In this document: positions 14,186 to 18,116 of the stretch, one piece after another
How positions within the stretch are numbered: position 1 is the stretch's first letter
Layout: each line of letters opens with the position of its first letter
Source: Defluviitalea phaphyphila
GTDB lineage: Bacteria; Bacillota; Clostridia; Lachnospirales; Defluviitaleaceae
DNA length: 48,245 nucleotides
Assembly (NCBI RefSeq): GCF_001466305.1
Contig: NZ_JWID01000012.1
Location: 1-48,245, forward strand
Direction: 5' to 3'
Translations under genes and position numbers: made by a program
The notes under the pieces: generated by a model
The model's database searches: none
What the model was told of the DNA's origin: nothing
What the model saw: the letters and a program-made list of their open reading frames with translations, nothing else

Positions 14186-15130
14186 TCAATGTATAATATT
14201 ACCATATTGACATAAAGATTTTACTTCCCATCCATCTTTTTTTATTTCTTTAGTAATTTTTTTTATATCTTCTTGGGTATATTTTTTTGATAATAATCTA
14301 TTAAACCATGGTTTTGAAATAAACCACAACATCTCACAAAGGTCAGTAGTAATTTTTTTGTTTTTAATTGACAATATTATATCATCTATTACTTTTATAT
14401 CAGGCCTTTTTAAAAGTATATTTTTTACTACTTCTTTATTAGTCCCCATATAAAAATATATTACTTCTCTCATAGCATAATAAAAATAAGTATGTGTATT
14501 ATCCATACAATCAATGATAACATTAGTGTTTTTTAAAGCTGTCCTATTATTATATGATAAAAGTTGTAAATTTAATCCGACATCTTCATATATTTTTTTA
14601 GCTTTAATTTTAAATCTTTCTACATCATCACTTATTATACTTAAATAATTTACATGAGGATACACTATATCTAAAATTAAATCTGTATTTTTATTTTTCC
14701 CATCTAATATGGCTATTTCTACTGTTTTTAAAGGTTTATTTATAATTTTTAAAGATTTTAAAATTACTTGATAAATAAATAAAGGAAAGATTATTTCCCC
14801 TTTTGCTATTGGAATAGAATATGAATATATATTCGACTTTTCTTTTGGTGGAATTATAATTCTGACACTATTTTCCTCCAAAATTTCCATGGTTTTATCA
14901 ATAATTTCTTGCACATATTTTCTAGACTTCTTTTCTATATCTTGTAATAAAATGGGTAATACCACTTTAAAACCATCTACTCCTAATATTGATACTTCTT
15001 CTATATTTAAAGGGCAATTTTTTAAAATATATTTATCTCTTAAAAAAAGAGGCATTTTTTTAATCCAATTGTATTTATATTTTACATCATAAATATTATT
15101 TGCCCATTTTAAATAAGCATATTTTTTCAC
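14186..15130 (-). CDS. Uncharacterised protein with a possible Rossmann-like core
   Basis: I do not recognise a named family. The 314-residue protein has no signal peptide or membrane segment. Residues of about 130-240 alternate hydrophobic strands and helices in a way that resembles a Rossmann-type domain (VEIAILDG, then NYLSIISDD followed by a charged helix, then NTNVIIDCMD), but there is no clear GxGxxG nucleotide loop. The C-terminal part is rich in Lys and Ile and includes a tryptophan-containing stretch (EMLWFISKPWFN). It lies 77 bases downstream of dusB on the same strand with no obvious terminator between, so it could be the last gene of the transporter-coaX-dusB run. Confidence 0.7.
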   Translation of the reverse strand: MKKYAYLKWANNIYDVKYKYNWIKKMPLFLRDKYILKNCPLNIEEVSILGVDGFKVVLPILLQDIEKKSRKYVQEIIDKTMEILEENSVRIIIPPKEKSNIYSYSIPIAKGEIIFPLFIYQVILKSLKIINKPLKTVEIAILDGKNKNTDLILDIVYPHVNYLSIISDDVERFKIKAKKIYEDVGLNLQLLSYNNRTALKNTNVIIDCMDNTHTYFYYAMREVIYFYMGTNKEVVKNILLKRPDIKVIDDIILSIKNKKITTDLCEMLWFISKPWFNRLLSKKYTQEDIKKITKEIKKDGWEVKSLCQYGNIIH

Positions 15131-16191: not shown

Positions 16192-16959
16192 CTACTTATT
16201 CTTCTCATAAATAATTTTAAGTCCTTGTAGGGTTAAAAATCCATTTACTTCTTCTATTGTTTTTGATTCTGGAGCAATTACTTTGGCTAATCCTCCAGTA
16301 GCAATAACCCTTGCATTAGGAGCTTTTATTTCTTTTTTAATTCTTCTAACTATATAATCTACCTGCCCTACATATCCATATACTAAACCAGATTGTATGC
16401 TGTCTATGGTATTTTTACCTACTACTCTTTTTGGTTTTTGTATTTCTACTTTCGGTAACTTAGCTGCTCTTTGCCATAAAGCTTCAGCTGAAATATTTAT
16501 TCCCGGAGCAATAACTCCTCCTATATACTCTCCATCTTCACTAATTACATCAAAAGTAGTGGCTGTTCCAAAATCAATAATAATTGCAGGACCTCCATAT
16601 AAATACATTGCTGCTACTGCATTTACAATTCTATCTGCACCTAATTCTTTAGGATTATCTACCCTTATGTTAATTCCTGTTTTTACTCCTGGTCCTACAA
16701 TTAAAGGGTTGATTTTAAGATACTTTCTAATACCATGTTCTAGAGAATACATAATATCTGGAACTACAGAAGCTATTACAACTTGTTCCATATCATTAAT
16801 ATCTACTCCATTATGCTTTAGTAAATCATATATAAACATTCCTAGTTCATCTGAAGACCTATAAGCTCTTGTGGTCATTCTCCAATAAGCAATCATTTTA
16901 TCTTTTTCATAAGCACCTAAAACAATATTAGTATTTCCAACATCAATAGTTAGTATCAT
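16192..16959 (-). CDS. coaX: Type III pantothenate kinase
   Basis: CoaX phosphorylates pantothenate, the first committed step of coenzyme A synthesis. The 255-residue protein has the three motifs of this acetate/sugar-kinase fold: N-terminal [10 protein letters not shown] phosphate loop, [11 protein letters not shown], and [14 protein letters not shown]-terminal [13 protein letters not shown] is the nucleotide-binding end. The gene directly upstream encodes an ECF transporter substrate-binding protein preceded by a pan-type RNA leader, which supports a small pantothenate uptake-and-use unit. Between the two is a hairpin that may reduce read-through. Confidence 0.96.
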
Positions 16960-16982: not shown

Positions 16983-17017
16983 TATAAAAGCAGACACATT
17001 AATTTTAGTGTCTGCTT
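16983..17017 (-). terminator. Hairpin between the ECF S gene and coaX
   Basis: On the minus strand a perfect 10-bp stem (AAGCAGACAC / GTGTCTGCTT) with a 10-base AT loop is followed by TTATATA. The T tract is short, so termination is probably partial and some transcripts may continue into coaX. Confidence 0.6.
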
Positions 17018-17024
17018 ATAATCC

Positions 17025-17624
17025 CTAAATATTATATATTTTTTTTAATGCTTTTACAATGATAACTGATAAAATTACTGATACTACCATCTCAGGAATT
17101 CCATTAGCTGTAGCAATACCAAATAAAATGGTTTTTGCTGTTCCTACTTTCCCGGCACTACTAAAAGCTTCTACAATCTCTTTTGCATAAATTATATACA
17201 TCATTCCTAAGACACATACAGTATTTGTAAGACTTCCTACTGCTCCTCCTACAATTATTGATACATATTCCCCTGCAAATTTTTTAATACCATAATATGA
17301 ATAATAAGAAGCTATTCCTACTAATATCCTTGGAATGACTGATACTAAAGGATTCATTAATGCAAAAGATAATATACTTGTAGGTTGAGTTACATTTCTA
17401 ATTAACCTAGCAAGTCCAAAAAATAATCCTACAATTCCTCCTACTAAAGGTCCGCCTAGAATTCCTCCAATAATAGTTGGAATATGTGCAATAGTTGCAC
17501 TAATTAAAGGAAGTCTTATAGTGCCGATAGGGGTAGCATCAAGTAGGATAGAAATGGCTATTAACATCCCTGTTATAACCAATTTCTTTGTAGAACTTTT
17601 GCTTGTTAATACTGTGTTATTCAT
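17025..17624 (-). CDS. ECF transporter S component, probably for pantothenate
   Basis: This 199-residue integral membrane protein has about six hydrophobic segments and the usual size of an ECF (energy-coupling factor) substrate-binding subunit. The first helix carries the family-type start 'LVITGMLIAISILLDA', and the second part contains glycine-rich helices (GGILGGPLVGGIVGLFFG). Such proteins bind a vitamin and use a shared EcfA-A'-T module, not encoded in this window. Pantothenate is inferred from the downstream coaX gene and from the upstream tandem pan-type hairpins; the protein alone does not prove it. ATG start behind GGAGGTG, directly abutting the second hairpin. Confidence 0.85.
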   Translation of the reverse strand: MNNTVLTSKSSTKKLVITGMLIAISILLDATPIGTIRLPLISATIAHIPTIIGGILGGPLVGGIVGLFFGLARLIRNVTQPTSILSFALMNPLVSVIPRILVGIASYYSYYGIKKFAGEYVSIIVGGAVGSLTNTVCVLGMMYIIYAKEIVEAFSSAGKVGTAKTILFGIATANGIPEMVVSVILSVIIVKALKKIYNI

Positions 17625-17635
17625 TTTTTCACCTC

Positions 17636-17723
17636 CGTTCTCGTTCCAAAAGGATACAAGACGTATTACTTATAAAAAATTATGTAGTCCGACTTCTTAC
17701 AATTTATAAGAATGTCAGCTACA
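17636..17723 (-). promoter_or_regulatory. Tandem pan-motif-like RNA hairpins in the ECF S gene leader
   Basis: Two consecutive hairpins on the minus strand share one architecture. Hairpin 1 (17683-17723): lower stem TGTAG/CTACA, a bulged A on the 3' side, 5-bp stem CTGAC/GTCGG, a bulged A on the 5' side, upper stem TTCTTATA/TGTAAGAA, loop AATT. Hairpin 2 (17636-17663): lower stem CGT/ACG, 3' bulged A, 5-bp stem CTTGT/ACGAG, 5' bulged A, upper stem TCC/GGA, loop TTTT. Single stems with two bulged adenosines, often in tandem, define the pan motif known upstream of pantothenate synthesis genes. Hairpin 2 ends on the first base of the GGAGGTG ribosome site, so control of translation is plausible. 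The assignment to the pan family is by recalled architecture, not by a covariance search. Confidence 0.72.
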
Positions 17724-17729
17724 AATTCA

Positions 17730-17757
17730 ATTATATCAAAAAAAGTTAAAATTTCAA
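17730..17757 (-). promoter_or_regulatory. Promoter of the pan-leader/ECF S gene
   Basis: On the minus strand TTGAAA, 16 bases, TATAAT. The -35 overlaps the TGA stop of the upstream DUF6145-type gene. The predicted start point falls at or next to the first base of hairpin 1, so the transcript would begin with the structured leader. Confidence 0.65.
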
Positions 17758-18116
17758 TATTGTTTATCTTTTTTAAGAATTTCTTCTTTTATAGCTTGTC
17801 CTTCTTCAGTTTTATACATTATATACCATAATCTAAGCATTTTAAGTAATTTACTTTTTTCTTCTTCTATTCTTTTTATTTCTAAAGATACTCCTATTTC
17901 ATCAAAATCATAATCACTTTCCTCTGCCCTTGCTTCAAAATAAATTTCTCCATTTTCATAGAAACCTATAATAAAAATTCCATGTAATTTTTCTGCTAAA
18001 GAAATACAAAGAGTTCTTATTTCATTTCTAATAGCCGTTGGGATATCATCAAATTCTGGGTTACTATAATATTTTTGTGTATAATAAGAAGCTGCAAATA
18101 CAACTTTTTTATTCAT
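17754..18116 (-). CDS. DUF6145-type small protein, function unknown
   Basis: This 120-residue soluble protein resembles the uncharacterised clostridial DUF6145 family: an N-terminal aromatic stretch (ASYYTQKYYSNPEFDDIP), a central strand-rich part with acidic residues (EESDYDFDEIGVSLEIKRI) and a C-terminal helix. There are no catalytic motifs. It follows birA by 11 bases on the same strand and is presumably co-transcribed. Family assignment is by memory of the pattern and is moderately sure. Confidence 0.75.
   Translation of the reverse strand: MNKKVVFAASYYTQKYYSNPEFDDIPTAIRNEIRTLCISLAEKLHGIFIIGFYENGEIYFEARAEESDYDFDEIGVSLEIKRIEEEKSKLLKMLRLWYIMYKTEEGQAIKEEILKKDKQY

Follow-up and report, generated by a model that had tools for sequence, protein, structure and literature searches.

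Two adjacent hairpins fill the leader of an ECF transporter S-component gene in Defluviitalea phaphyphila, and their common plan recalls the pan motif. This RNA, an orphan ever since its description in 2010, had been placed only in front of pantothenate synthesis genes: panB, panC and aspartate decarboxylase genes in the original report (Weinberg et al. 2010, PMC2864571), and panBCD in Paenibacillus (PMC5670726). The questions raised by the locus are whether its leader is a genuine pan RNA, whether the pan regulon reaches from making the vitamin to importing it, and what operates the RNA. A preliminary description, made from the sequence alone, had proposed such an extension and had called the ligand and mechanism of pan RNAs unsettled, which they still are in the literature searched. 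In the open-access literature searched, we found no report of a pan RNA before a transporter or kinase gene.

We refer to the whole stretch of DNA analysed, 48,245 nucleotides of contig NZ_JWID01000012.1, as the window. The features at the locus are given here in 5′ to 3′ order of the minus strand.

17754–18116, minus strand: DUF6145 gene (PF19642, E 1.5e-19), directly 5′ of the panT promoter
17730–17757, minus strand: putative sigma-70 promoter of panT, TTGAAA, 16 nt, TATAAT, with a TG extension (11/12 consensus positions)
17683–17723, minus strand: pan hairpin 1, 5′ bulged A at 17713 and 3′ bulged A at 17688 (fold, Rfam alignment, ortholog covariation)
17664–17682, minus strand: AU-rich linker joining hairpins 1 and 2 (fold)
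17636–17663, minus strand: pan hairpin 2, 5′ bulged A at 17655 and 3′ bulged A at 17639 (fold, Rfam alignment, ortholog comparison)
17632–17636, minus strand: Shine-Dalgarno (SD) sequence GGAGG, its first G paired in the lower stem of hairpin 2 (sequence, fold)
17025–17624, minus strand: panT, predicted ECF transporter S component of pantothenate type, 199 aa (PF12822, E 1.9e-27; 4RFS chain S, 6ZG3 chain C)
16192–16959, minus strand: coaX, type III pantothenate kinase (PF03309, E 1.5e-81; NCBIfam equivalog NF009847, 405.9 bits with a cut-off of 381)

The assignment of the S component as PanT-like is supported by comparison of its predicted product with solved structures. Strong matches were obtained only to 4RFS chain S (E 1.8e-21) and 6ZG3 chain C (E 6.9e-11), structures of L. 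brevis PanT and of ECF-PanT (PMC7755397). These are the closest solved relatives of the regulated protein, and control of panT at the RNA level is described nowhere in the literature searched. On the same product the folate-family model TIGR04518 gave 34 bits, with 60 required. Both gene assignments of the preliminary description, a putative pantothenate transporter and coaX next to it, were upheld; the adjoining kinase gene lends its own modest support to pantothenate transport by the predicted PanT. The genome also encodes EcfT-type proteins (PF02361 matches) and a panB-panC-panD operon, in which panC was assigned by Pfam and the other two genes by reading; pantothenate is therefore probably both made and imported.

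Fold and family of the leader

Folding of the leader (17620–17724, minus strand) gave a minimum free energy structure of –30.7 kcal/mol (z = –4.7), equalled by none of 200 shuffled sequences, and this structure contains both of the adjacent hairpins that had been proposed between 17636 and 17723. Hairpin 1 can be written UGUAG.CUGAC.A.UUCUUAUA-AAU-UGUAAGAA.GUCGG.A.CUACA, with a lower stem UGUAG/CUACA, a middle stem CUGAC/GUCGG and, in the fold, an 8-bp upper stem closed by a 3-nt loop. Hairpin 2 is CGU.CUUGU.A.UCC-UUUU-GGA.ACGAG.A.ACG, with stems CGU/ACG, CUUGU/ACGAG and UCC/GGA and a loop of 4 nt. The plan common to the two is a 5-bp stem flanked by two bulged A's, one on the 3′ side and the other on the 5′ side. 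A 4-base loop had been ascribed to both hairpins, which is correct for hairpin 2 but not for hairpin 1.

The last paired base of hairpin 2 is the first base of the SD sequence, so the second hairpin does abut the ribosome site, as first described; the ATG is at 17624. Judging by the promoter match, which is a consensus match and not proof of function, transcription would start at approximately 17723, where hairpin 1 begins, and the leader would then comprise barely more than both hairpins. The panT leader of the window contains no terminator, nor space for one.

The covariance model of the Rfam pan family (RF01749) matched 17632–17721 of the minus strand over model positions 1–92 of 92. The score was 37.7 bits (E 8e-5 over the 801 bases searched), above the gathering score of 36.2 bits, by 1.5 bits only; fast-filter scans of the whole window and of the whole genome with RF01749 missed the site. 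The score, both bulged adenosines, the tandem arrangement and the compensatory changes given below all place the leader in the pan family, and we regard its membership, together with a cis-regulatory role, as almost certain. The window RNA is a bona fide pan member, in what is probably a translation-coupled and uptake-controlling form, that the Rfam model barely detects.

The leader resembles the motif of Weinberg et al. in its tandem stems, in the two conserved bulged A's of each stem, and in its location before a pantothenate-pathway gene. It differs in preceding the importer gene panT instead of panB, panC or an aspartate decarboxylase gene, and in having no terminator and being fused to the SD sequence. 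Its hairpin 2 core is CUUGU/ACGAG, whereas the commonest panB/panE cores are CUUGG/CCGAG and similar; in many panT leaders, moreover, only hairpin 2 is retained. In the genome the hairpin 2 core has a single exact match; that this site is the only one rests on the exact-core pattern and on R1, a covariance model of hairpin 2 built from panT leaders, which a divergent second site could escape. The panBCD leader of the same genome contains no pan RNA, either by covariance model or by eye.

Orthologous leaders and the genes behind pan RNAs

Among 146 related genomes, PanT relatives were detected in 96, and 70 panT leaders were collected. A hairpin 2 core of the form CUUGUAUC-loop-GAACGAGA is present in 26 of the 70; the other 44, many from more distant orthologs, have no such leader. 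Across the panT leaders the core CUUGUAUC....GAACGAGAAC is nearly invariant, the commonest form of the region being GUCUUGUAUC-loop-GAACGAGAACrGGAGG. Hairpin 1 precedes hairpin 2 in 8/8 genomes of the same family, and the tandem plan recurs in 11 leaders outside it (L040, L049, L105, L106, L109, L110, L111, L114, L117, L143 and L153). Other panT leaders mostly have hairpin 2 alone, often shortly after a TATAAT box, and most of these single-hairpin leaders are below the RF01749 gathering score or undetected.

Compensatory changes were found in both hairpins. For hairpin 1 (8 distinct sequences, aligned after the unpaired interior of long loops had been shortened by hand) pairing was 96.9% and 7 of 12 pairs had changed on both sides, which none of 500 shuffles reached. 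For hairpin 2 (24 diverse sequences) 96.2% of cells were paired, with 26 both-side changes compared to 8 in shuffles; the sequences are related, so such counts are not independent events, although several variants are clearly separate. Pairing fell to approximately 26–50% in slid controls. The middle stem occurs as CUUGU/ACGAG, CUGGU/ACUAG, CCGGU/ACUGG and CUUAU/GUAAG, while both bulged A's are invariant. The preliminary description had made its proposal hinge on a significant match to the pan model and on compensatory changes and conserved bulged adenosines in orthologous leaders, and all three are there. The narrow margin over the Rfam cut-off and the misses of the filtered scans might suggest that the hairpins arose by chance in AT-rich sequence, or that they are an unrelated look-alike of pan, but conservation, covariation and gene specificity over dozens of species exclude this explanation. 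Refuted by the ortholog comparison, it retains a negligible probability.

Gene specificity was apparent from a gene-blind scan of 84,980 species genomes with an exact DNA pattern. Among the 40 sites returned, the next gene encodes a PanT-like S component at 39, with its start codon 3–9 nt beyond the SD sequence, and is coaX at one (L135); the spacing between hairpin 2 and the SD sequence is near-constant at all 40. The MAGs that carry these sites are labelled Epulonipiscium, Vallitaleaceae, Petrocella, Sedimentibacter, Alkalibaculum, Alkalibacter, Halanaerobiales, Megasphaera, Anaeroglobus, Colibacter and others, and for two divergent products PanT is still the best solved relative. R1 found 30 strong sites in the relatives, 28 at panT and 2 directly at coaX. 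Having been trained on panT leaders, it partly re-finds its training sites in that scan; the more independent tests come from the exact pattern and from the scan of the phylum. In the phylum sample the 10 best R1 sites outside the D. phaphyphila genome (E ≤ 0.0022) are all at ECF S genes. Five weak R1 matches (L115, L116, L118, L119 and L121; E 0.02–0.05) are located elsewhere, look like chance and were discarded. At three places the panT-type hairpin lies directly 5′ of coaX and not of panT (G098:C5:171119-171158, G138:C67:14665-14704 and L135), so the element seems to have been re-used on the kinase gene.

RF01749 itself was found above gathering in 138 of 398 phylum genomes. Seventy sites were read; the first downstream gene was found for 69, and 66 of these were tallied by Pfam. 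The tally included DUF2520/Rossmann oxidoreductases (32), panB (19), panC (6), SBF transporters (4) and BioY (3). From context we infer that the oxidoreductases are PanE-like, and the SBF transporters we take to be of the PanS family. The remaining three first genes encode OPT transporters and are followed by genes for Fumble-domain (type II pantothenate kinase) kinases (L226:501-3165, L229 and L260, in genomes G335, G516 and G453). The pan-headed OPT transporter is a candidate for a new importer, whose substrate would be pantothenate or something pantetheine-like. Association with pan lends support to uncharacterised importers of this kind, the OPT transporter with its type II kinase partner being one example.

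The three BioY sites belong to operons of the order pan, terminator, bioY, panT-like gene, coaX (L223, L232 and L259). Either the uptake of biotin and pantothenate is controlled jointly there, or this BioY has another substrate. The PanT-like gene of L232, too divergent for naming by solved structures, was called panT by position and by similarity to the others. At L205 pan precedes birA, which is followed by a panT-like gene. SBF (PanS-like) genes behind pan are followed by panC (L233, L235, L248 and L257, in several phylum genomes); the pan-SBF-panC operons include a genus that also bears panT-type sites (G216, G437 and G521). Of the RF01749 sites just described, eight were rechecked and scored above gathering. 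A panT-type site coexists with a pan match at other pantothenate operons in 12 genomes, which comprise one group in which several of the other-operon matches are below gathering (G014, G021, G042, G054, G063 and G081) and a second group (G216, G334, G437, G483, G500 and G521).

RF01749 members thus also stand before bioY-panT-coaX, birA-panT, panS-panC and OPT-Fumble units, and the published list of pan genes is too narrow. With pan before uptake, kinase and synthesis genes, pan RNAs appear to control all three. The extension to uptake that had been suggested from this one locus is broad: uptake and kinase genes are preceded by the panT-type motif and by Rfam pan alike. An SD-coupled pan RNA before an importer and a kinase completes the vitamin B5 regulon: make, import, activate.

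Mode of control and candidate binders

We consider it very probable that the tandem pan RNA controls translation of panT; it would turn the gene off when pantothenate or CoA is plentiful. Under such conditions a trans factor, either an RNA-binding protein or the metabolite itself, would engage both bulged A's; the bound factor would stabilise the panT hairpins, 30S binding would be blocked, and uptake would be off. Most of the SD sequence is single-stranded in the hairpin 2 fold, so its occlusion would require a bound factor. Off polarity by SD occlusion at panT is probable, and it fits feedback control of a vitamin importer.

At panE/panB, bioY-panT-coaX and panS-panC units the pan hairpin would instead favour a downstream terminator, with off polarity alike. 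The common rule would be that a bound, stabilised pan hairpin means off, through termination or through ribosome block. A terminator-like hairpin lies at most 170 nt downstream at 68 of 75 canonical pan sites. After hairpin 2, where panT has its SD sequence, these sites have a conserved GAAGG-like tail, able to base-pair with the 5′ arm of the terminator, which is CCUUC-like. The tail-terminator duplex averages –9.6 kcal/mol within a site compared to –8.3 kcal/mol across sites, a site's own duplex being at least as stable as 68% of cross pairs; the sites are related and not independent, and the comparison is no more than suggestive for the tail as an antiterminator partner. Such pairing would make the pan hairpin and the antiterminator mutually exclusive, so that a formed pan hairpin would mean off.

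The predicted transcript start at hairpin 1 would also suit an element of RNA stability or processing that protects the 5′ end, as 5′ hairpins may do for an mRNA, and that is conserved by happenstance with no metabolite response. Confinement to CoA-precursor genes over several orders would be unexpected for such an element, as would the fixed abutment on the SD sequence and the terminators at canonical sites, and we think it very unlikely.

The breadth of the regulon narrows the pan signal to something shared by synthesis, import and activation, namely pantothenate or an intermediate of CoA, or else a protein that reads it. A protein seems the somewhat better candidate for the binder, a metabolite a possible but less favoured one: the element is small and its loops vary, which speaks for a protein, whereas tight sequence conservation and the lack of a universal protein candidate leave room for a direct ligand.

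The obvious protein candidate is CoaX, encoded beside panT. It adjoins panT at many loci (21 of 45 downstream neighbours scanned), and each of the 30 relatives in which a strong panT-type site was found encodes it. Across the phylum there is an association of pan with coaX (159/164 versus 199/234, odds ratio 5.6, uncorrected for phylogeny). However, near-complete genomes bear pan sites and have no detectable CoaX: G188 (98% complete, with a strong site before panT), G241 (97%) and G306 (99%). CoaX is thus not the universal sensor and was rejected as a universal RNA-binding regulator; that it serves as the RNA-binding regulator at all is hardly credible.

Alternatively, pan hairpins may be direct metabolite riboswitches, tandem small aptamers for pantothenate, an intermediate or CoA and not protein sites, which we judge possible with clearly less than even probability. 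In favour are a regulon that covers only the synthesis and uptake of CoA precursors and the kinases, a core near-invariant in sequence as well as in structure, one sensor serving two expression platforms (terminator and SD), and the absence of CoaX from several pan-bearing genomes. Yet the element is very small, loops and stems vary across the family, and the conserved part is hardly more than two bulged A's and their neighbours; its discoverers read the simple dimeric hairpins as suggesting protein binding (PMC2864571), and a 2022 review contains no CoA riboswitch (PMC9971707). In its widest form, which we put forward tentatively, this reading would make pan the natural RNA sensor that has been missing for the CoA pathway. 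As a tandem mini-aptamer directly binding pantothenate, a CoA intermediate or CoA, it would co-ordinate panBCDE synthesis, uptake (PanT, PanS and a new OPT-type importer) and phosphorylation (CoaX and type II kinase) through termination or SD occlusion.

Guanidine-II (mini-ykkC) riboswitches also consist of two small tandem hairpins joined by a linker, with conserved ACGR loops. Pan is like them in its tandem small hairpins and unlike them in that its loops vary and its bulged A's are conserved. As with the riboswitches of vitamin importers (TPP, FMN, THF and B12 classes), one class of leader RNA serves synthesis and uptake of one vitamin, but the pan binder may be a protein, and no CoA riboswitch is listed among those reviewed (PMC9971707). 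The decision between a protein and a direct ligand bears on the question of a CoA riboswitch.

Further features around panT

The gene order at the locus is panT, coaX, dusB. An inverted repeat, AAGCAGACAC...GTGTCTGCTT (window 16988–17017), lies between the panT stop codon and coaX. On the mRNA strand UUUUAUAUAU comes after the repeat, which may act as a terminator of panT transcription or as an attenuator for coaX. A similar intergenic hairpin occupies the equivalent position in several relatives (L032, L034, L037, L040 and L049). Between dusB and greA there is an ORF of 314 aa (window 14186–15130, minus strand) with no Pfam or NCBIfam matches.

DUF6145 is a conserved neighbour in part of the group only, accounting for 15 of the 36 genes upstream of panT sites, and its apparent C-terminal end also lies before a panT that has no motif (L055); it was dismissed as a general regulator. 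Other genes upstream of the pan-panT unit (loci L122–L161) encode a thioesterase resembling FlK, of the fluoroacetyl-CoA thioesterase family, in 4 of 36 neighbourhoods and a CYTH-domain protein in 6 of 36.
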